Source: Hymenolepis diminuta (lineage: Eukaryota > Platyhelminthes > Cestoda > Cyclophyllidea > Hymenolepididae). From it: a DNA stretch of 64,000 nucleotides. Positions 5,747 to 50,697 of the stretch are shown in pieces. A program made the translations under genes and the position numbers. A model generated the notes under the pieces. That model was not told the origin of the DNA and did not search any database. It saw nothing but the letters and a program-made list of their open reading frames with translations. The stretch is taken from assembly GCA_900708905.1 (NCBI GenBank), contig CAADRB010000015.1, positions 355,444 to 419,443 on the forward strand. Reading direction: 5' to 3'. The stretch's first letter is position 1. Each line of letters starts with the position of its first letter.

Positions 5747-8700
5747 TCAGAGGAAATTTCTGTAATTGAAACCAAATGAACTCTTGAATGGTGAAGTTCA
5801 CCGTGTCGCTGAAATATGTTATAAGTAGTACTATCTGGCATCTTACCCAACGACATATTGTGGCTTTGGAGCTTCAGGTTGTTGTGAAGGTGGGGGTGGC
5901 GGAGGTGGTGGCGGTGGTGGTGGTGGTGCTTGAGATGCAGGTGGTGGCTGTTTAGGAAAGTACCAGCAGTATACATAATGAAATAATTTGTTAACGATGT
6001 GCTGATGATCTATGCCAGTGTCATGCGAACAATTGTCTGACTGCTGTAACTACTTATACCGCATAAGTTGACAACTACTTGAGATACATGCAAAGAACAT
6101 AATTTCACTCTTGTAATTCCCAATATCTCCTCCACAAAACGTGATATGGAATAGATGTGGATTACACAGAGAGAATTATGCATACGCCAAGAGAATATTA
6201 GTTCGAGATTCCAAATAGTCTCTACCAACACTTTAGTTTTGTAATTTGGCATGTCATCACCATTGGTTATGTTCAGTTTGATGTGTGCTGAGTTCGATAA
6301 TGCTTTGGATTCTCTACAAGTTGCAATTTCTTGCGGGTTTATTTCTGTGTAAACACTACAGTTCTAATTGTGAAGGCTGTAGCTCAGATTGTTCGAAAGC
6401 GACCCTACTTAGATTCCAATTTAAATTAGTGCTATCCAAGTAGACATGCTTCTTTGGATGATTTAAACAAAATTCTTGAGAAGATATTTCCATGTGTTTA
6501 TGTTGCGGCTTCTGATAACTGACATCAATGTATGAGTAATGAGGTCTTGATTCTTTCGAATCCCCCAATAATTTTACCTGCTCAATTTGGACACTCAACT
6601 TCCTATTTATTTTATTTGAAGTCCTTTGAGAATAAGAAAAATGGCGCGCTTGACATTTATCCTTGTATGTTTGATGTTTATGGGATGTACATTCGACAGC
6701 TTGTGAAGATATCTCCATTTGACTGTGATTTGTTTCATAACAAATAATCTCAATTGTTGATTGTTAATGTTCCACTTCTCTGGAATTCTTGTTTTTTGGT
6801 CCTTGAGCTACTTCGGCTCTTAACTTTCCGTTAAGTTGCTTTGATGATTTTTGAATATATGGAGAAATTTTCGCTTATCGTTTACTTGACATAACTTCCA
6901 CATTCACATAATGCTTAAGACATATATCTCTGACGACTTCATTAACTATTTCCTGGCACTTATTTCGTGATCTGTGACAAATGATCTCAACGTACAGTTG
7001 TTGATTTTCTGGCTCTCTAGGGTTTTCCTCTTGCAGTTCCTAATCTAATTCGATATCAAGCTTGCCTTTGAGGTGTTGCGAAGATTTATAATTAAGGGAA
7101 GAAAGGTTTTTTGTCGTTTACCTCCCTATGTGTTAACGTTTCCATATATATCCATGTATATTCCGTATGACAGATTGAGAAGGTATTTCCTTGCATTTAC
7201 TTTATGATTCGTGATAACGGGTCTCAGCGAATGACTGCCGATTTCCTGATTTTTTAAAACTCACTTTTGATAGTTCTTGATCTTTTTGAATTTCTAATTT
7301 TCCCTTACGTTGTTGAAAGGACTTTTGAGAATACGAAGAGCGACTCCCGTTCCGTTTACTTGGCGGAACCTCTTCATGTGCTTGATGTTTACGAGATATA
7401 TCGTTGACAGTTTGAGAAGATGTTTCATTATCACGTGATTCATGATAAGCTACCTCAATGGACGGTTGTTGGTTTTTCAATTCCTTTGGTAGTTCTTGAT
7501 CAACTTCAATATCTGCTTTCTCTTTGATGATTTTAAAATATTGGAAGAATGATTTTCATGTTGTTTGCTCGTCATGACTTACACACGTACTCGGCGTCTT
7601 TTTGATACATTTTTAACAGTTTCAGAGGACATTTTCTTGACATCATGGTTTGATCCACAATAATTAATATTCCAGTCTATCAGAACCTTCCTTCGATATT
7701 TCTTGATCCATTGGGATTTTTAATTACCCATTTTATAAAGTCCTTTGAGAAATCAAAGTATGATTCTCCAAAGATGATTGATGCCTTTGATTTGAAGCTT
7801 TTACAGTTTTCAGTGTCTTCGGATTTCTTTTATTCTTCTTTTTTAACTAAAATTTTATATGATGAAGAAATACTCTAATAAAATGGAGTCTGTTGATTAG
7901 AATTCGTCTTCACGTTCCCATTATCTTGTTGAGAATAAAGAAAAGTGGCTGTTGATAAATAATAAATAATATTAAAGAAAAAAATTGTTTTCTAAACACA
8001 ACACAGAAACAAAAATGACATGATCAATCTAAAATATTAATGAATTAGTGGGATTAGCAACATCGATAAACAAACTACCGGATTTCCCAATTTGAAACAA
8101 TTTGGCTATTTCAACTTACAGGATTTTTGGCCTTGGGCCTATTGTAGCAAATTATAAACTTCTTCATTTAGACTGTGTTTTGTTTAAATAGATATTACTT
8201 GTTTTAATGACGTAAATTATAATAATAACAGAGAAATTCATATGACTTTATAGACAATTGTTTTGTAATTCATGTTTATATCTAGAACATTTCAGTTCCA
8301 ATGAAGGTTAAGTATATAGTTACTCACTTAATAATCATCGCATTTAAGCAAACAATATGAATTATAATAAAATTAATAAACCAGTTAAATTTTACTGAGG
8401 AAATATTATACCCTGAATAATGCATCTATAGAAATTGGCATTTTCAATTTGATTAAATTTCGCCAAAAAATTATTCATAAGGGATCATTGTAATTTATCC
8501 TAATTTTTTAGCGTAAACAACCGCAACGTAATTTTTATCAAAAATAAACAAAAAACAATGTATATAATAAATTTTTTTTTCAGTGATATATACCAACGGA
8601 TATTCTTAATCAAATAAAACTCAAACCAGTTCCTAAATTTATACATGAACATTTGGTATATTTTCTTTCGAATCTTGAATCCTTACCTGTAAGAGAGAAG

Positions 8701-11700
8701 TAGTTTTCAAAGAAGGTATTCTATTCATTTCCAAATTATTTTCAATGATTAAAACTACCGAAGAGAAAGACCAAAATCCGAAAACTGCCCAAAGACTGGA
8801 ACAAAACTGTCTTTTCTTATTCACGGAGCTTATCACAATTTTTGTACTTCAGATTGAATTTGTTGTTAAAGGTAAGTTCCAGGTTAATTAAAAAAGTTTG
8901 AATAAAGAAACATCAAAGACAATAATAATATTTTCCACTCTCCTTTAGGAGGAAGTAGGTATCCGAACGTGCGTTCAAGCTCATTATGTACTGATTATTT
9001 TAACGTTTTAACGGACGGTTACGATTATGCTATTATACCCTTTTTGATTAGAAATAATTTGAAAATCCAGTATAAAACTTTCCATTTTGATTTGATAGGG
9101 AAGATGGAAAGGAGGGAATTATAATATAAAGAATGAAATTTTAAAAGGTCGCAAAACACTGAATATCTTAGTTGCTCTGGTTCATAAAAATATAATCCAA
9201 ATTTATATGGCTACGCTATTAATGAGATAAGCCAGATGAGGAATAAGCCATTCAGAATATCAGCCAGTTCTTTTCAACATTTAACCAAAATCAATGAATC
9301 GTAGTGCAATGGAATGTACAGACGGTCAAAACTAAGACCAGAATCAAAAAGCCCTTTTCTGTTGATAGAGTTTACCTGTACTGATACAGTCTCAGGCTTC
9401 CGTTGTTGAACTTGTGCTTACATCTGTGCCTGAACACAGTGCAGAAATTAATTCTATAAATCTTCTAAACCATTCCTTTTTCTTACTTTAACACGGTATC
9501 TAGTAATATATGTATTTTACCATTAGTACGATATATTACTAGGGATTAGTAAAATCACTATTTAATTCAGTTATTTACAAATATTGGTAAGTTATTTCAG
9601 CCACTGTTCAAGCACTAAGCTAGAGTTGGCAATGTCTCGTGCAAATGGACGAAAAGCTGATCTTGTCTATCGGTAGTAATCTAGCTAAACTTACTTGAGT
9701 TGCTGGAGCCTGTTGAAACTCCTGAACTTGCGGCTGCAACTGCTGCGGAATTAAGAAAATTAAAGATTCTATAGATTGAACTTTCTGTCAGCTGCATACC
9801 GGATTCTATGTTAGAGCATAGCAGCCATCCTAACATGCATTTGCTAACTCTCAAAGCACTTCTGTTATAACCAACCATATAACGCCCTCAATTAAGGCTG
9901 GTAAAAAGTTGCGAGCAACTAATTGGGAAGATCGTTCCTCCACAGTAGCCAATAATAAAATGAGGACAACAATGATCGAAAGCAAGTGGCAGCGCGCGAT
10001 GGATGAAAACGTGTGTCTTCCTAAATATGGATAACTTTCCTTATATAGAACGGTTAGTCCTAATGCAATGGACTTCACCTGTTTCTGTTTTCTAACCAGA
10101 ATAAAAATCAATAGTAATTTTGATAAAAGAACGAAGATTGAAGGTGCTTATGCCGTTTAAATGAGGATTTTATGAACTTAATTGTAAGATTGGAGGAAGA
10201 GTCAAAACCGAGTTGAGTGAAGATGTTTTTCGACAATGATAGGTAAAATTTGTGGTTTTCGATCACTATCAGATGATATCTGAAGGTATTTATCAGGGTT
10301 AATTTATATTAATAAATTTGATAATGAGCAGTTAAATTAATATAAAATTACAGACAAAACCGATTAATTTTCGTTACTATTCAGGGGAAAACTCTTGATT
10401 ATGATGAGATACGCCAGATCACAAAAGTTGCCACATCGAATGATTTTAACGAACTACTGAAGTATTAATCTATAACCGGTGAATTTAAGGCTACTTACTT
10501 ATTTATTGTATATGCATTTGCTGCTGAACTTGTGGCTGCGTATATTGCAGGACACCATATCCAAAATGTCCAAATAAGTCTTTTCAAACAAATTGTGTTC
10601 ACGTCAATTGTCTCAAGCTATTTCAACGTGCATTTGTGTAAATTCTGATTATTTTTTGTACATTTGTTATCCTTCAAATTATGTTCTCTTTTATTAAATC
10701 ATTCCATTATTTAGCCTTTTCATATTTTTTTTCCACTTTTGGAATGTCGAATAGACCGCGCTTTCTGAAGTCTACTAAGTACACTTTTATGTATTCAGTT
10801 CCGACTGAGGATTGCTCCTAGTTTGTTCCAATTTTAAAGAAAAATTGATCAATTCTTTCCTGACCGATGGTGTGATTCAGTACGTGGTTTTAAAATTCAC
10901 CAATTGATAATACGTAAATATTGTTAAGAGCCGAATAGGTAAGATTTTACTACCATGAATAAGACGACTGTATAGTTAGTAATAACTTACAGATCAGAAG
11001 CCCTTCAGCGCAAAAATGGATGAGATGAAACGTTAATCGGTTCTCTTCGATTCTCAACTCAACCATTGTGGACGATGAATAAACGTGCGTATTACTCATT
11101 AAATTTTTAGGCAATATATTAAGACCAGTAACCTCCAGATAGCTTTAGCAAAGAGAGGACCTTGATATATCTCTATTATTAGCCAGACACTATTACTACT
11201 GCTCATTATTATACCATTTCAAGTGAACTCCAACGAGTTATGCTGTGCTAAAACATCTTATTAAGTACCAGTTAGCTGCTCTGGACTATTCACTTAAATA
11301 AAAAAACTTATGATTTAAGAGCAAACCGGTGGACAAATGTGCCATTACTAACTACTCAAGCACTAAGTAGGAACATCATGCAGTCTGACAGAAAGCCAGT
11401 GAATATTATTGATCAGAATTCTACTGATGGAGCTTACCTGTACTGGTGCAGCCTGAGGCATCTGTTGCTGGAGCTGAGGCTGCATCTGCTGCTGAAGACA
11501 ATTCAGAAGGTATATTTAGAGAAAATAAATCAACATTCTGCCTACTACGTTAATAATAAGCTGTCATGCAATCATTGCAGGTATTTTTTTAAAATTCTTT
11601 GTACATATTAACTGATTTACTATTTCTCAAATTGCACTTTCATTTAATCAGAAATTTTGGTTCATTTCACAGTTTTCATTTTCCCAGTTCATATTTTTTA

Positions 11701-14700
11701 AAAATGCAATTAATATCCAAGATTTTTACAAATTAATTACAAATTATTCCAATTCAGGCTATGTTTGGAAACAGTTCATCGTTGACTCATTTTCAGTTAG
11801 AATTCAAGATGAATACAAGCAACCTCAGTTATGCTAAAACTAGGTTAGGTAGTGTTTTCTAGCTCCTCCTTGGCCAAATAAATTTACTAAGGCGAATTGA
11901 ACTGCCACTCATTTTAATCAACTGGGAAATAAGTTACGAATATCGTGGACAAGAGCTAACTAAATAAAATAAGAAGAATAAATCTGTCAAATGTAATTTA
12001 GAAATTTATTTTGTGAAAAGGAAGTTACACCTGTTAGGTTGATAGAGAAAAATATGAAAACTCCAAAATTCACTCGTGGATATTCTATTATTATTCCTTT
12101 CTTAAGTTGGATCTATTAACTAGCCATCTTTAACATGATGAGACCCTTTTTTCAGTAATAAGCCCTTCTATTAAAAGATCGAATCCAACCATAGATTTAA
12201 ACTAATTAAGCGATTAATTACTTAAATAGTCCGACAATATCAAATTGTGTCATCTGAAGAGAATGACGATTCATTTTAGCAATCTATACCCGTAGTATTT
12301 AAATTGTCAGGTCATAAGCTAATTTTACTTAGAATTCCGTTTTTAGTGAAATGAGCAGGTGGAAATAGGAGTCGTTCAAATATATTTGTCACTTCTACTC
12401 AAGAACTAAACTGCACAACGAGCAAATAAATATTAAACGAATGCCAAAAGCTAATTTGGTTTTACTGATTGACAGAGTTTACCTGCCTTAGAGCTGTCTT
12501 TGGCATATTTCGATCATGTAACTTCAAATGTTGCTAAAGACAATTGGGAGAAGCGTACGGTAAATAAAAAACAGTCATTGGTTAGTTCTAGTATTGCTGA
12601 AGAACCTTTCGTCTTTTCCAATGTGCACAGATTGCATAATTTTGATGGAAGTTTCTGAATTCTTGAGAAATTGTCTGTAACTTTCAGACTAAAACATATT
12701 TTTCCATTTTTATATCATTCTGATAACATGCTTTAACTCGTGGCTTTTGATGTCATTTTAACAAGCAAAATAAAATCTACATTCTAAGTTCATTCCTTAA
12801 ATATAAAACTAGTTAAATCTGTATTTTTAATCACGTAATCATTAACAACATAATAGGGAAGCTAAAATCCTCAGACATTAGCAGAAAAATAATGCGGTCA
12901 AAGCAATATTGTGTTTATTTGGTAGAAAAGTTTCAAGCATTAAACTAGTACTATTGGATCATCTGAAGATTTATGGAAGACCGAAGGTTTTCCAGATAAA
13001 AATAGAGCTGCACTTTTCTACTTACGAAACTTACCTGTATTTTCAAAGGCTGGGACTTCTGCTGAACTTGAGGTGGCATTTGGCGCTGTAAGTTGTTAAT
13101 TCGTGGGAAAAATTTATTATTCTCATAAACTGCTTGATGCATTCCGATTTGGGAAATGGACATTTACTTTACCTTCCCATCATTCTATTCACTTTCAATT
13201 ACTCGTTGAACGCTTATTCTGTTATCGGATACAAGAATTCCTCGGATCTGACTGAGACATATTTTCGGGAATAAGATCTAGAAAAACTAGATAACAGAGA
13301 GATCTAAAGGATAGTGCCACCCAAAAGACCTAATGTAGTACAATGATTTGTCACTCGTGTTTATTCATCGCCTGTGCTGATATATTCCGTCGCCCAATAT
13401 CAATCTCAACTGGGAGTCCATTTTGTGATTGATAAAGTTAAAATAATATATTAATGTGAGAAAATATTTTCAAATATTGCCTCTTGAGAAAACAACATTT
13501 TTTATTATCTATGCTTGCAATATTTCCTTTTATATTTATATTATTGGCCCATTTTTATATTTCAAGGTCATGAAAGACGTGGGTTTATGCCAAATTGAAT
13601 TGAGTTCTGTCTCTTTCCTCTATCTGGAAAAACTGGGTTGTCAAGCCTGTATAGATCGCAAAAGTTATCTCAAAACTTTATTCCAAATAACGTTTTATTT
13701 TACTGGCAAAAGCTCAAATGGAAGCATCCAAGAAGCCGTTTTGTTTATTTGTTAGCACTGTTTTTCGAGCACTTATCTAGAAATATCATGCAAAAAAACA
13801 TAAAAAAGCCATAAAAATCAATTCGATCTAATCTATTGACGGAGCTTACCTCCATGGCAACATTCTGCTGCATTTGCTGTGTCTGGGGCTGCATATGTTG
13901 CTGTAGGTGTTTTTTCCGTTAAATTATACGCGGTAAAATCGTTTATACATATTTTTGAAACTTTTTCAAAATTTAATATTTTTGTAATCATCTGTACCTT
14001 AGAGATTTGGAATTTTTAGATAAATTAGAAATATCGAGAAAAGCAAGGCGGCTAAACAATGTGCTAGTGAGAAATATTCGTGTGAAAATTTATAAATCGA
14101 AATGTTCAATTATATGTCTTTACAATAATTATTTTTAAGAACTATGGTAAAGTTTCTGTGGATATTTTTTACTCATTATTTTGCATTTGCCTTAATTTTA
14201 AGGCTAAAGCATTATGAATGTAGACTGCACTCAAAATTATTTCCTAAATTACGGAGATTAAGGTGAAATGAATCAAGAGCTTAATACTAAATAAATGCTT
14301 GGATCCGAGGAGGAAAGAAAAATTTCCAAGTGTCCTTCCATTTAATTTAAAAAGTGAGTTTACTTCCTCTTTTCTGAAGTAAAAACGCACCTGCATAACA
14401 ACGGGCTGCTGAGCTGGTGAAGCCATGGATTTTTGTGGTGGTGGCTGTGGTTTCGGCTGTTGAAGTGGCTGTGGTTGTTGAGGTGGACGTGGCACCGGTG
14501 GCTGAGCCGTGCGAGCTGGATCACCGGTGATCGAACGACGATTAGAACGCAATGAAGCCTGAACTTGAGCATAGAGTTGCTCGGTGTCATTCAGGCCCTC
14601 AGTCTGGCTGTTTCCTAAAAGGAAAAGTATGAGAGACATGGGATATCATTAAAAATTTTATGATTAAGCATGGTCGCAATTTTCGCTTTAATTTATCTTA

Positions 14701-20700: not shown

Positions 20701-23700
20701 ATGATTTAAAATACTAATTTAGCCCCCTTATGAACCATTTATCATAACTGCAATCTTAAAACTGTGAAAGAACTTCTTACTTATTATCGGTTCTTTAGAA
20801 AAAGATTGAAATCGAATATTACTAGGGAAAATAGTCCTTGCGGGCGAAAATGAATATGAATAACATTGCCTTTGGCATTCTGACTATATCGGCAACTAAA
20901 AATACCATTTACTGGAGTTGGTGTCAATTACCAATGGATAAGAAGTGTGGCAGTGATTTACGATGCATTTTCTGCGGTCATAATCCTCTACAGAACTCCT
21001 TTAAATTTGCTGCCATTCACTTACAATATTTTGCTTTTATATGGATAAGTGGCCATGCGAAATAGATGCAAAATAGCATTAATGATTCTGTTGATTTTTT
21101 AGCCACTAATAACTTGTGTTAGCTATACCGACCATCAGCCTTTGAGGTACTTGTCAAGAAATAGAATGTTACTGTTTGTCACAATCATATCAAAGATAAC
21201 TCACCAGTTTTAAGTGGTTCCCCATCCTTGAACCACTCAACAGTCATACTTGGGTCATTGGAAGGCTGCACAAAAGTCTCAAACTTGGCCCTTTCATTCT
21301 CTTTCAAGTTGATTTGTGGAAGGAGAGGGCGGAGAAATTGGGGTGGAGTTGTAAATTTAACCTCGTCTTCACGTCTTGATGTACCATTCATGGCAAGTTG
21401 ATTCTCCATTGCTGCCAAGTTCATGATCATTGATTCTTCGGGTAGCTGGGAGTCGGTGATCACGCTATCCTCTGGCACGATGCTATTTAAACAAACATTA
21501 TTTTTGTAGACGTTGCAGATTCAACAATCATATTTGGCACATTTCCTCTTTTATCAAGTATGACAAGTGTCCATAAGGAGTATGAACCCAAAGTTTTAAT
21601 AAGGATATCCTATCTGGACTTGATGATGAGATGTTATTTTGACTGTCACCTCTAATTGACAAGACTCAGTAAAGGTCCTATTTTAATCAATTCAGATAGA
21701 GGTAGGAAGTTTTTATCAAATACTGCTGCAGGAGATTGTCCTATAATGAACTTCAGAGTAAATCGAGATCAGTTTCTGAAACTATACGAATTTATTTAGG
21801 ACAATAATGACAGTGTATGAAGTTTTGGTTAATTGTTGATTTATAACTTTTGAAAAAATTTCAATTATCAAAGCAATGGTAATTCATAAAACTACTCACG
21901 TGACTTGGCAAGGGGAAGATTGAGCAGTTCCATTAGCCGTCTTGGCAACACAGACATACTCTCCTGAATCTGTGGTGTTGGTGTATAGAAATTGGAATTC
22001 AGCATATCCACGATCCAAAACGGCATTATGACGAGAAGCTGAAATAATAATAAAATGGCTTTAATTGTTATTACGTCATAATTAATTTGATTTTGCCTGT
22101 CACTTCTAGTGAATTTCATAACAGTGTCCAAGTACCCGAAATGAAAAGAAGCATTCATTTTGAACCTCAGTAATATTATAAGTATAACCATTCTTATAAT
22201 CAAAATAACTGTTATTGTTGCGTCTTTATATTATACGGTTATCCCTGATTTCTCCTCTTATTTAATTTTACCGATTTTATTCACACAGGCTAACTAACCT
22301 TTGCCCCTAATCTTCTGTTTTCTTTGTCTTATTTTACACTTTGCAGCTCGCAGTCGTTAGCCATTTCCCTACGGTTCTTTAATGTTTTTCTAATGAGCCA
22401 CACTCGAATCTCTGTCTCTTACACGTCAAGAAAATTCCAATTTTGCTTTGTATGAGGTTATTATCTTATCTTAACAGAATAAAGACCATTCAATGTCCAC
22501 TTCACTGTACAAAATAGTGTTTTAGTAATTTCGTTTACTAAGTCTTCTAATGCATTTTAAAGGAATGTTTCATTTTTTCATTTGTTGTTAAACTATATCT
22601 TGTTATATAATTATACTAATTAAGGTTATCAAATTGATCACCTTGACTGAATACTACACATCGAGCTCCGTAAAGTCAAATTGTTTTGGCTATCTCGGCT
22701 TCGCAATGCTAAGTTGTTACCGAAAAGTAGATAAAGTTACCCTTCCATCAACATATGCAGAGATAAATTGGTATAGAGAGCTTATATGACCATATCAATT
22801 AGCTGATCAGTATGAAATGAAAAGTGAGTTATTTTTCATAAATAGGGAAGCATAAGTCCATATCGGCTACCTTAGCTCTGCTAATGTTAGGATCATATTA
22901 GGTGGTCAGTATCATTTAAGATCATTCTACTTTCTAAGCCTTTGAAAACTATTCAAGTGACATGGCAAAACCAATCACTAGAAGAAATTGTTATTATTTT
23001 CCCCCATTACCAATATTTCTTCTGTTAATAAAAAAGTAATTTTCTTCTTTCTTTTCCACTGATAAAAGACACTGCGATTATGCCTATTTGTTTAAGCCGG
23101 TGCCGATTGAGAGCGAGTTTCGTTAGTACACGCGTGTTTACAATAACGTACCTTGTATTCTGTTGTGGGTTATTAGCTTCTGTGCTAAGTTGCTATATTA
23201 CTGGATTTTTTAGGTTGGTTTGCTCTGTGAGGTTACTACCAGTATTTCTATTTTGTCACGTTATAACATTAACCATCATAATTAAATAACTGGTCAATAA
23301 GCGCTGGACATCGAACATAAGAATATATACAGTAACCCAGGGAACAAATAATGACATTTTAATTGTTGAAGGTGAAAAGCGTACAGCTGGAATCCAAAAA
23401 TCGTATGAAGCAAGACTTATTTGATATACTGACCTTTCTATCAACATATTTTAAATCTCCATCATCTTATCATTTATTAGCCTTACTGGAGTTGCCTCCT
23501 CACAATGAAATATTTTATTTTTTGCTTTATTGTAATGAAAACAATGATGCATAATGAAGCAAGAAAGTCAACTTACAGGCCGAAAGAACAACTCCATTCT
23601 TGAGCCACTGAACATCAAGCGTGGGGTCACCAGCAGGTTTGACAACAGCCTTGAGGATAATGCTGTCGCCCTCATTGACGGTCACCTGACCAGCGGGTTG

Positions 23701-26700
23701 CTGGACAAATTGTGGTGGGGCGTTATTATATCCTCGATCCATACTTCTTCTTGGTTGCTATCAACGTAAAATATCAAATTCTCTGTTTTAACTTTTACTT
23801 AAATGGAAAAAGATCCACATGCTTAAATCACCACTCGTATTAGAGCAGTAATAATTTCCCAAGATATGCTTTATTTGGTAACTTGAGTGATCTTTCACTA
23901 TTTTATTCAAGTTAAATTTTCACCACTGACCTGAAAATGTCTAAAAGACTTTGCATGCTAAAGAGTTATGATATAGTTTCTTTAGGTGACAATTAGTAAA
24001 ATATGTAGAATATTTTAGTGTATGCACCATTTTGTTGTCTGCATGCTTTGCTTACCCGATTTCTTGCCTGCATTTTAGGGATCTGGGTAAGTTAATTCGT
24101 TTCTGTATACGTCTGACAGATATTGAGCATGTTTATAGAAGGATCAATATTGATATTGAAATTTTACCAAAAGTAGTAATACAGTTGCTGTATACCAATA
24201 TACCAATTCAAAATTTGGAGAAATGGGTTTAATAAATTGAGATACCTTTTTAATTGATGTATGAATGTATGTATGTATGATGAGTAATGAAGTAACAAGC
24301 ATTGAATGATGAAATTATAACCAATTACTTTGTTTAATTCCTATTTTTATTAATAGCACATATTAATTATATTACAAATGTGGCATCAAATGCAATAACG
24401 AATACATCCTTAGAGGTACCAATATTAAAAATTTATTGTTTTTTATTCTGATTTGAGAGAAAAGGCTAAACTTTTGTATACGAAAAAAGTAGATACAAGT
24501 CCTATTCAAAACGTTAAACGTTTAATAAGCTCAGATAGAAATTTACAATAAATATTTGTTAGAAAAATTCTTTAAAAACATTGACGTAGCTTAATAATTC
24601 CGATTGTTTTGCATATGAATGGGAATTGGAGATGAGGAAACTTTAGTTACAGAGGCAAATTCAACTCACCGCATAAGTTGATGAATATTTCATATTTTTG
24701 TCGTGGATTACTTAAATTGCACTGTTAGATTAGGAAAAATTTGTATTTATGAATGAGAGTTAACAACTGGTGACATCGATAAAGAAAGTTAAAAATCACC
24801 GACCTGTGGCAAAATCTTTAACGTTTTTGTTCGAATAATGAAGGAAGAAAAATTTATCACCAAAATACTGTATCAAATTATGCTTTATTTTCGCAAATAA
24901 ATACCCTTCTTGAAATTCACAAAAAGAGTTACATTAACGAAATGCTTGGTACTATGTGGAAAATGGATTGATGGTTAATAAAAAACGAATATACTACCAA
25001 AATATAAGTTCTTTCATTGCAAAGAAAAGGAAAACTGAAAGCTGGCAACCCTGAGAAAACTAAATTAACTGACAAATATTATAAAATTTGATCACAATGC
25101 TGTTATTACTATTTTCGGTAATATTTATATTCATTTTGTCAATGTTCAAATACATAAAAGTCTATGAGAGAAAGAAAGGGCACAAGATATATATTTCTAA
25201 AACGTATATTTGCTTTTAAAATATCTCCGATCACGAAAATAGGAACCACAACAAAATATAATGTAATAATCTTGAAGTTGGTACTCAGGGCAAATAAATA
25301 AAACAATTCTGAATCATGAAACAACAGTTGTTTTTTCACTGTAGGTGTGAACGAGTGGACGGTTGGTCGAGCAGAAGTTGAGACACGTGTCTATGAATTT
25401 AAAAAATTTCGCTTCTTTTGAATTTAAAAATTATCCTATTGTTTATTTTATTCTTTTATCATTTATTTTGCCTTAGTGTTTTTAAATCTATACTTTATTT
25501 CTCAGGATCCTGGATGAGTTTACGCTCACCGGTCGATTTAACTGAGTCGTTGTTCGTGTAATCTCGATTCATATCTGTACTTAAGCAGATATTTTAAATA
25601 AATAAATCCCGTTCTAATTGTCATCATTGCATATTAATCGAATGTAAATAGTATTATACATAAAACTACTTTCTTGCAAATAAAATTATTTATGTGTCGA
25701 AAATTAACGAATATTTATTTGGAAATTGGGCATGAGACCATTTTACTGTTTGCATCAGTCATTCTGGACAGTCAACTAGTGTGAAATTTTTAGAATAACA
25801 TTCTATAATAGAGTTTAAGACTCCTTCCAAATTTGAAACAAGCATCTTAACGACTGTCCTTTACATATAAAGCCCTATTTTGGAAATTTAAATCGCTTTG
25901 CATACATTTTCATATCCTAAATAAAAATCGAAAAATGTATTGAAAATAAAATTAAAAAATGTAGACGTAATGAAACTATTAATTAAAAGTTCAGAACGAA
26001 AATTTTCCTGGTAAAAATGCGGTAAAATTATTACATTTAGCGTAATTCTTTGCATTCGGATGAAGGAAGAGACAAATACGTGAATGGTACAAATTAAGTG
26101 TCCATTCAATCACATATAGAGGAAGTAATGCGAAAAGGAGAACGGTATCAGAGTGGTGAAGAATTTTTTCCACCAAGGTTGGTGGTGGCATATGGCCAGG
26201 CCACTATGTCACTTACATAACCGCTTTATTAGCTAAGCGTATATGTAGAACACGGCAAAAGGAATTTGTGAAATTAGTCTTACCACGTGTGCATTATTTT
26301 AATAGAATCCATAAAGACGACTTTTGCCCAAATAATGCAATAAGTTAGAATTTCGAAGAAAGTAAATATCCATAAGGAGTTAATTAAAAAAATGATATCC
26401 ACAGTTGGTTAAGCGGTCTGAATAATTAAAATTTTAAATTGAAAAGATTTGTCCCACAAATCATTCCCATTAATCATTCATAAAATGGGAAATTTCATTT
26501 GCAGTGAACGAAATTTACTCGACAAATACGACAGATTTAACAGAAAAATAATCGATAGTTTGAAGGTTCCCACGATTAATAAAATTTTGAATTTAAAACA
26601 AAATAGAATAGCTGAACCCTTTTCTGTGTGCAATAGAATTTGTAATTATTTAGCAAATGAGTAAATGTACGGCTATCCGTTGCATTCCTGAAGTAATAAG

Positions 26701-28311
26701 TAATAATAATAAGTAATAAGTCATGTCCCTTCAGAAATGAACAGTTTTGGCTAAATTTTCCAAAAATAATAAAATCAAAAATTCCCGTTTCTATTCAAAT
26801 GTTGCGCTCCTATGTTTTCCTAAAAATTTTCAATTATATTCCAGGTGAGCATTCAGTTAAAGGTCAAATGATTGTATGATAAATTAATATAAACCTTGAA
26901 TCCACGTTTATTTTCGTACTTTATAATTGGTAAATAAAGATTTCTTAGAAGTACAAACTATATTAGTTATAAACTAAAAATATCAATTATTATCATATTT
27001 GTGCTGGTTCTGAAATACTTCTCTTCACATTTACAAGAAAATCATTTAATAATATTAAGTCGATCAAATTGACATGTATTCAAACTCACGGCCAAAATTC
27101 GGACATGGTATTAAATACAGATTAAAAATATCATATCAAAAGTATTTTAAGATGGTCTAAATAGAATTGCGATTATATGATTAGGTAACCAAGCCATTTT
27201 AGGAAACGTAGATATAAGCGTTAGCATTAAAATAATTGCTTACAAGTTGACGAAATTTCGGTGTAGCTCCAGTAGGACTAGTAGGTGGGGGCTGGGGTCT
27301 TGGTTGTGCTTGAGGAATAGGCCTCTGTTGTTGAAGTTGTTGTGCAGGCACCGACTGAGAAAGGCTCGGTTGCTGCTGCGGTGGCTGGTACTGCTGCGGA
27401 GGCGTAGCCATGGTGACGGGCACAGCCTTTCCCATTGGTTGATAACTTCCTGTCTGCTGATTGGCTACCGTTGGCGTCTGGTATGCACCTCGGTCGATAG
27501 GAGATACGTTTTGCACATAGGACTGCTGTGGATTCTGGTTCATCCTAATTACCTGGGGCTGTGTGGGCGCGGCATACATGGTTTGCTGAGGTTGATAACT
27601 TACTTGCTGTCCCGGCTGGGAAGCCACTGGTCTTACTGAAATCTGAGGCTGTATAATCGGTTCTTGTTTAGGCTGATAAGAAGTTTGAGGTGAGTACTGC
27701 ACAACACGAGTTGGCGACGCAGCTTGTTGAACAGGTTGGTATTGTGGGGTCACTCCAGACTGCCCTTGAGTTGAACTGGCGTAAACAACACGTTGTGGAG
27801 ATTGTTGTGATGGCGAGAAGAATAGTTGTTGAGATTGTGGAGCTTGTTGTGGTTGTCTTTGAGCCATGTTTTGGTACTGAGGTTGAGATTGAATCTGCCG
27901 GTGTGGAGAAGCTCCGATAGTGTATACCTGTTGACTAGTTTGAGCAGGTTGAACGGGCTGTGCTTGATAATAATTCTGTGATGTTTGAGGTTGTGATTGA
28001 GGTGAGTAGTAAACTGCTGATTGTTGATTTGTTGACTGTGGCTGAAATTGTTGAGGCTGGTAGATTTGTTGTGGCTGATATTGAGGTTGTGATTGCGTCT
28101 GAGGATGAGATTGATATTGGGATTGAGCCTGATTTTGGGGCTGAGGTTGATATTGGACCACCTGTGGCTGAGTTCCTTGCGGGTAGTAGACCGTTTGGAG
28201 GCTATCTTGAGCCCCGGTGCTTGGTTGAATATAGGTACCTCCTTTGACAGCCTGTAAGCCCTGTTGTACGTTGGGTTGATTTCCAATATAATAGGTTGTT
28301 TGTGATTCCAT
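5747..28311 (-). CDS. Kettin/titin-like Ig-domain muscle protein with Q-rich N-terminus and Q/P-rich tail
   Basis: Exons read on the minus strand: 28311-27244, 23757-23577, 22038-21900, 21482-21205, 19124-18986, 18848-18753, 18234-18063, 16595-16400, 15365-15252, 14614-14391, microexons 13900-13850, 13085-13035, 12533-12483, 11491-11438, 9742-9695, then 5947-5847 and 5759-5747. All junctions are GT-AG and all phases agree, giving 991 residues. Residues 1-356 are Q/P/Y/S-rich low complexity. Three Ig domains follow (about 366-462, 498-602, 642-747), with core motifs such as VQWLKNG, VEWFKDG, DSGEYVCVAK and DSGQYYCVAKNNAG. In each domain one of the canonical cysteines is replaced. The linkers (IVTDSVLSAE and VITDSQLPEE type) resemble the Ig-linker modules of kettin/Sallimus, which bind actin at the Z-disc. 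A basic helix-like segment, a Q/P tail and a polyproline exon end the protein. The Z-disc role is inferred. The last two exons are the least certain part. Confidence 0.75.
6356..7860 (-). repeat. Degenerate tandem array of a protein-coding repeat (about 73-85 codons per unit)
   Basis: Six units can be anchored on the recurring plus-strand motif ttcttgatc or a variant, at about 6543, 6800, 7037, 7273, 7493 and 7700, so spacing is 207-257 bp. On the minus strand the anchor encodes D-Q-E-L. The best-preserved unit (about 7540-7202) reads YHESRDNETSSQTV, then SRKHQA, SKRNGSRSSYSQKSF, QRKGKLEIQKDQEL. Neighbouring units match it but carry in-frame stops (YHES followed by TAA, D followed by TAG) and frameshifts. 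The array lies in the intron between the last microexon and the polyproline exon of the kettin-like gene, on the same strand. I do not recognise the repeat. It looks like a dead repetitive exon or a pseudogene. Confidence 0.7.
8675..8705 (-). promoter_or_regulatory. Zero-length exon / candidate recursive splice site
   Basis: On the minus strand a pyrimidine tract and ACAG are directly abutted to GTAAGG (junction between 8687 and 8686). This is the form of a ratcheting point, where a 3' splice site regenerates a 5' splice site. It lies in a 3.7-kb intron of the kettin-like gene. It might instead be a microexon copy that lost its exon body. Confidence 0.4.
9376..9429 (-). pseudogene. Microexon copy with in-frame stop (possible poison exon)
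   Basis: 54 nt flanked by an intact acceptor (TGTGTTCAG) and donor (GTAAAC). It aligns codon for codon with the other Q-rich microexons, but the fourth codon is TAA where siblings have CAG. Inclusion in mRNA would truncate the protein after the Q-rich tail. It is either a decayed exon or one used for nonsense-mediated control. Confidence 0.55.
10499..10548 (-). pseudogene. Dead copy of the Q-rich microexon
   Basis: It aligns with the other microexons (CAG CCA CAA GTT CAG CAG region) and keeps a perfect GTAAGT donor. The acceptor position reads CCTG instead of a usual TTCAG, and the fifteenth codon is TAA. A nearby CGCAG could act as a cryptic acceptor, but the stop would remain in frame. Confidence 0.55.
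22976..23268 (+). mobile_element. Old solo LTR, copy 1 (inside an intron of the kettin-like gene)
   Basis: About 293 bp, clearly homologous along its whole length to the two 296-bp elements at 41681 and 52119. It shares the TAGAAGAAAT start, the cacgcgtgtt block, gggttattagcttctgtgctaagttgctatatta, and the CGTTATAACA end. It has diverged further: the 5' terminus reads CACTA and no target-site duplication is visible, so it is older. Confidence 0.7.
23758..27243 (-). other. Intron 1 of the kettin-like coding region
   Basis: 3.5 kb of AT-rich sequence between the Q-rich exon and the first Ig exon. Only simple repeats (gtatgtatgtatg near 24265, taataa runs near 26695) were noticed. No further exon with matching phase and flanking splice sites was found. 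Confidence 0.5.

Positions 28312-50217: not shown

Positions 50218-50697
<480 letters not shown>

Follow-up and report, generated by a model that had tools for sequence, protein, structure and literature searches.

How does a run of very short exons, each of which can be skipped without loss of reading frame, come to lie within a gene? To our knowledge, the origin of such frame-neutral micro-exon runs in flatworms is an open question. A locus that bears on it lies in the cestode Hymenolepis diminuta (assembly GCA_900708905.1; genome size, 170.6 Mb in 203 contigs). The window analyzed is the 64-kb stretch at positions 355,444-419,443 of contig CAADRB010000015.1, and its minus strand carries a gene whose spliced product is a flatworm "titin-like" protein with three I-set Ig domains. 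Within the 8.4-kb stretch from exon J to exon Z of this gene, seven related units, m7 to m1, occupy positions 9376-13900 on the minus strand, with m7 starting at 13900 and m1 ending at 9376. We consider it probable, with considerable room for doubt, that these units form a birth-and-death array of the Hymenolepis lineage, made of weak-acceptor cassette microexons that refill a linker of roughly conserved length; their alternative splicing is putative.

The members of the array are listed below, together with their use in P0077, a predicted H. diminuta protein of 927 amino acids (aa) encoded by this gene.

13850..13900, minus strand: microexon m7, open, 51 nt, QHMQPQTQQMQQNVAME; skipped in P0077
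13035..13085, minus strand: microexon m6, open, 51 nt, RQMPPQVQQKSQPLKIQ; skipped in P0077
12483..12533, minus strand: microexon m5, open, 51 nt, the most diverged, with 2 Q only, QHLKLHDRNMPKTALRQ; skipped in P0077
11438..11491, minus strand: microexon m4, open, 54 nt, QQMQPQLQQQMPQAAPVQ; used in P0077
10507..10552 (borders approximate), minus strand: m3, a decayed copy lacking the acceptor AG at the expected border and holding an in-frame stop
9695..9742, minus strand: microexon m2, open, 48 nt, QLQPQVQEFQQAPATQ; used in P0077
9376..9429, minus strand: m1, 54 nt, splice sites present, a single in-frame TAA
8794..8834, minus strand: a doubtful eighth relic, with the donor-side flank only and no GT at the donor place

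Each open copy (m7, m6, m5, m4 and m2, of 51, 51, 51, 54 and 48 nt) is preceded by AG and followed by GT, is in phase 0 at both ends, and adds 16-18 aa to the protein's flexible tail, and the five are thus interchangeable in frame, as befits a tandem exon duplication array. The original prediction of seven copies at 9376..13900, five of them open, 48-54 nt long and in phase 0 on both sides, is borne out by these splice borders and reading frames, and its spacing of 0.3-1.0 kb agrees with measured gaps of 265-991 nt between neighboring copies. The copies had also been called glutamine rich, which holds for four of the five open ones (6-9 Q each) and not for m5 (2 Q). m1 and m3 look like dead copies. 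The candidate eighth copy was rejected, since its E value, which varied from 0.03 to 16 with the profile used, did not surpass those of unrelated places.

Homology among the copies was assessed with leave-one-out profiles, which exclude the tested copy, span 15 nt upstream, the exon and ~115 nt downstream, and were searched in the window. Six of the seven copies were recovered in this way, with E values of 4e-18 (m7), 1e-11 (m6), 9e-6 (m5), 2e-20 (m4), 3e-9 (m2) and 2e-13 (m1). For m3 the value was only 0.005, with unrelated places in the window reaching 0.03, and none of exons B-J was listed below E = 1 in the same search. The adjacent exons are homologous, and the microexon array is confirmed as real and more than chance. 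This homology among neighboring copies supports the repeated local duplication that had been proposed.

The similarity extends into the introns, on one side. With intron-only leave-one-out profiles, the first ~115 nt 3' of the donor proved partly related among copies (m7, 5e-4; m4, 0.005; m2, 8e-5). The 80 nt upstream of the acceptors yielded no convincing homology (0/6), and there was likewise none at +120 to +240 downstream (0/6). In pairwise comparisons against random pairs from the window, p < 0.05 was reached by 4 of 21 pairs downstream and 3 of 21 upstream. Searched singly, the +6..+60 and +60..+120 pieces gave no convincing recovery; the joined flank was needed, and then recovered three of six. 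Exon-only profiles found m4, m2 and m1 at E <= 0.0033, m7 at 0.14, m6 at 0.12 and m5 not at all, with unrelated places at 0.006-0.04. Because these exon-only profiles are weak, exon and flank are jointly needed for strong scores. The flank similarity is therefore real, but one-sided and partial: the similarity between intron flanks that a dot-plot was to show exists in the downstream ~115 nt of m7, m4 and m2 and was not detected upstream of the acceptors.

Which of these copies reach the protein? P0077 equals exons A-J, m4, m2 and Y letter for letter, 13 exons in total, with m4 and m2 side by side and m7, m6, m5 and Z skipped. The exons outside the array are as follows.

27244..28311, minus strand: exon A, 356-aa Q-rich N-terminal coding exon starting with ATG; the spliced model that includes it equals P0077 exactly
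23577..23757, minus strand: exon B, start of Ig domain 1; in P0077
21900..22038, minus strand: exon C; in P0077
21205..21482, minus strand: exon D, start of Ig domain 2; in P0077
18986..19124, minus strand: exon E; in P0077
18753..18848, minus strand: exon F; in P0077
18063..18234, minus strand: exon G, start of Ig domain 3; in P0077
16400..16595, minus strand: exon H; in P0077
15252..15365, minus strand: exon I; in P0077
14391..14614, minus strand: exon J, start of the P/Q-rich linker, phase 0 at its end; in P0077
5847..5947, minus strand: exon Z, proline rich; skipped in P0077, counterpart present in P0001
5403..5477, minus strand: exon Y, last coding exon (NATEGQPNGQYSVTETSAEFQIEL, then stop); in P0077

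The three I-set stretches are those expected of a muscle protein of the titin/twitchin type, and the best solved match is a titin chain. All named matches above 50% identity are flatworm proteins, and relatives in Echinococcus and Mesocestoides carry the label "titin"; the I-set Ig type and these labels suggest that the protein may be located in muscle. A second genomic place (C5:1029395-1029613) encodes a relative of the post-Ig segment, with 42% identity to query residues 23-89, and is perhaps a paralogue of the 700- to 760-aa flatworm "titin" proteins. The large intron before exon Z contains a degenerate tandem repeat of ~210-nt units (6359-7800, minus strand) with coding-looking but broken reading frames, and a whole-genome DNA search with this stretch returned only the self-match. 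Elsewhere in the window, an NDUFS4-type complex I subunit and a HIT-domain protein lie on the minus strand at 1471-1890 and 50383-50697.

If the gene model P0077 is right, two copies, m4 and m2, are used together and additively, not mutually exclusively. A second sequence, P0001 (629 aa, from a transcript-like 2,398-nt contig of a relative), shares 89% identity with P0077 across 496 columns and contains J, one microexon, Z and Y, the microexon being nearest to m4 (14/18). In the predicted proteins of Mesocestoides, Anoplocephala, Echinococcus and Hydatigera, a J-like segment leads to a Z-like one with no microexon segment seen by eye (4/4 judged; two Spirometra-type proteins left out). As to the comparison of copy number in related worms that had been suggested, one m4-like copy is seen in P0001, and none by eye in the predicted proteins of the four other cestode genera. 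The idea that the copies can be mixed freely is not supported beyond frame compatibility and the addition of m4 to m2 in P0077; only m4-like alone or m4 with m2 occurs in any sequence found. m7, m6 and m5 look optional. Past the conserved EFQIE tip, the Echinococcus, Hydatigera and Anoplocephala gene models (P0080, P0019 and P0079) continue with additional C-terminal residues, which may reflect faulty annotation of the last exon.

Linker length was measured between conserved VQASLRS-type and SAEFQIE-type anchors; two of the twelve proteins tried (P0081 and P0082) fall outside this pattern. The linker has 101 aa in P0077 (m4 and m2) and 99 in P0001; in eight other flatworm proteins its length is 88-123 aa. 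With all five microexons and Z it would reach 186 aa. The microexon use seen so far would thus keep the linker near its usual length, replacing the length of J or Z, which speaks against broad tuning; isoforms outside the database could exist. In the assembly, a shift of one base puts Z and Y in different frames, and Z joined to Y reads into a short wrong end; their counterparts are consecutive in frame in P0001 and other cestode proteins. The cause of this break may be an error of assembly, or a genuine loss through which the microexons gained importance in H. diminuta. A very small exon may lie at 5802-5808, a 7-nt stretch flanked by AG and GT.

Optional exons typically combine a weak acceptor with a strong donor. 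By a splice matrix built without the exon under test, acceptor scores of the six microexons fall below those of eleven other acceptors (p = 0.0011), and donor scores do not differ (p = 0.21). In neutral-decay simulations at the observed divergence, retention of AG and GT in six of seven copies has a probability of 0.0009-0.0055, and five of seven copies that are both spliced and open, one of 0.0003-0.002. Identity at codon positions 1/2/3 among six copies including m1 (gaps placed by hand) is 0.55/0.68/0.47, as would be predicted if the protein sequence were of slight importance.

According to the reading that we favor, an exon with ~115 nt of its 3' flank would have been duplicated locally and repeatedly in the Hymenolepis lineage; some copies (m1 and m3) would have decayed while others stayed open, a birth and death of copies; and the weak-acceptor cassette microexons would refill the linker with its overall length roughly kept. 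Several observations weigh against it. The intron flank alone recovers just three of six copies (m6 at E 6.6 only, m5 and m1 missed). Low leave-one-out scores are also seen for the acceptors of the ordinary exons B and D, and because of this and of a training set of ten sites, the weak acceptors are moderate evidence of cassette character. Open frames alone are unremarkable under neutrality (5/7 open, P 0.18-0.25), and the neutral simulation is biased, since the copies were chosen partly for their exon-like look. The evidence that m4 and m2 are used in H. diminuta is P0077, a gene model and not a transcript; the 2019 assembly is described as annotated with BRAKER2 and RNA-seq (PMC6890685), and P0077 likely derives from that annotation. 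The absence of microexons in four genera rests on gene models, which may miss small exons.

In a partly overlapping explanation, the array is decaying, m4 and m2 are now ordinary constitutive exons, and the other copies are non-functional relics open by chance. In its favor, P0077 uses just m4 and m2, m1 carries a stop, m3 lacks an acceptor, and open frames are often expected under neutrality. However, the donor and acceptor dinucleotides kept in six of seven copies are improbable under neutrality, and the acceptors of m4 and m2 are weak too. We regard this explanation as possible, if somewhat unlikely.

The original prediction went further and suggested that the array could be a length-tuning cassette for the tail. 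In such a cassette, the five open copies would be mixed freely and the length of the tail would vary by tissue or stage. This also overlaps in part with our preferred reading: five copies are open in phase 0 with their splice sites kept, their acceptors are weak as in cassette exons, and P0077 combines two copies, P0001 having one. However, only m4 with m2, or an m4-like exon, appears in any sequence found, and m5 has lost the Q-rich character. Because the linkers with microexons (99-101 aa) fall within the 88-123 aa of the eight relatives, broad length tuning is not supported, and we hold it to be unlikely.

A further possibility concerns the flank. In an embryonic micro-exon gene, the duplicated unit would be an exon plus 3' intron with its own splicing enhancer, represented here by a GCAYG Fox-type site +52 to +58 behind m7, m4 and m2 and by the TTAGTGCTTGA element. 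The candidate elements are the following.

13787..13791, minus strand: GCATG, +58 nt downstream of the m7 exon end
11377..11381, minus strand: GCATG, +56 nt downstream of the m4 exon end
9638..9642, minus strand: GCACG, +52 nt downstream of the m2 exon end
9608..9618, minus strand: TTAGTGCTTGA, flank element of m2, with near copies (0-2 mismatches) at 11356-11366 (m4), 12399-12409 (m5), 12933-12943 (m6) and 13765-13775 (m7)

GCATG or GCACG occurs within 150 nt downstream of three of the six copies with a donor and of none of the nine exons B-J; Z has one at +119. The same motifs also lie upstream of exons B, I, m4, m3, m2 and Z. Because the three downstream sites are close together in the copy alignment, they are counted as one presumably inherited site, not as three independent events. 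The genome holds a Fox-type RRM gene (C193; pieces at 62 and 67% identity among 29 RRM-like matches); a Pfam Fox-1_C search gave no match, and its controls gave none either. In human tissue, a report describes Fox proteins as promoting micro-exon inclusion in brain, muscle and heart (PMC4317164). Fox-type regulation of the microexons is treated as a lead only, because m7 carries a downstream GCATG yet is absent from P0077 and the inclusion of m4 and m2 amounts to two data points. No other 11-column stretch of the flank is as well conserved as TTAGTGCTTGA (permutation p = 0.024), which is suggestive only; the element is not enriched across the window (30 found, 26 expected), and its clustering behind the copies is accounted for by shared descent. 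We find the embryonic micro-exon gene quite doubtful. If it were true, every copy would be competent for splicing and in frame from its birth, and the locus would illustrate the origin of flatworm micro-exon runs within an ordinary conserved gene.

Mutually exclusive duplicated exons, with one copy chosen per transcript, would fit the single copy in P0001 and are described as a frequent mode of use for tandem duplicated exons (PMC9741552), but P0077 has two copies in a row, making this very improbable. That the units are dispersed repeat or transposon copies and not exons duplicated in place, as the extension of similarity into intron sequence might suggest, is next to negligible, given that m4 and m2 are coding in P0077 and that, with the more sensitive profiles, no match below E 0.3 is listed for 20 stretches sampled elsewhere in the genome, 200 kb in total (~0.1% of the genome; 8,229 bases N). 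Whole-genome DNA searches with m4, m7 and part of m1 returned self-matches only; since they missed the sister copies in the window too, such single-unit searches have no power for copies so diverged and are no proof of uniqueness.

The locus is a local example of an already known route, exon duplication, by which genes gain new pieces, and it is young enough that copies, flanks and dead members can still be aligned. The run is absent from the predicted proteins that related genes encode in four other cestode genera. No paper on the array was among the literature matches listed, which does not show that it is unpublished. If RNA shows optional use, the locus would be a small testable model for the joint spread of cassette exons and a regulatory flank.

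Among known systems, tandem exons of the Dscam and ion-channel type are likewise homologous exons at one locus, as described in PMC9741552; mutually exclusive use would mean that two copies never share a transcript, in contrast to m4 and m2, which are joined in the P0077 gene model, so that inclusion would be additive if the model is right. Micro-exon genes (MEGs), of which 52 are reported in Hymenolepis microstoma (PMC7653826), share the run of short exons divisible by three that can be skipped without frame loss. By the definition given in that report, which asks for at least seven exons (13 in P0077), half of them micro, the present gene is not a MEG: it has five microexons in the DNA and two in the annotated protein, at most 5/17 exons (2/13 in P0077). 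In addition, MEGs are said to code almost all for secreted or membrane-anchored proteins (PMC5825161), whereas this gene codes for a conserved Ig protein. The PEVK region of vertebrate titin (TTN) consists of many short exons remodeled via exon duplication and loss (PMC6469411) and coding for an intrinsically disordered region (PMC12295887), and the present array resembles it as a set of short duplicated exons in the disordered part of an Ig-domain protein. It differs in having seven copies against a reported mean of 89.4 exons in mammals (PMC6469411), in being Q-rich and not rich in P/E/V/K, in accompanying three Ig domains, and in a linker length apparently kept and not expanded; no common descent is claimed. 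The array resembles both PEVK arrays and MEGs in its possible mode of working.
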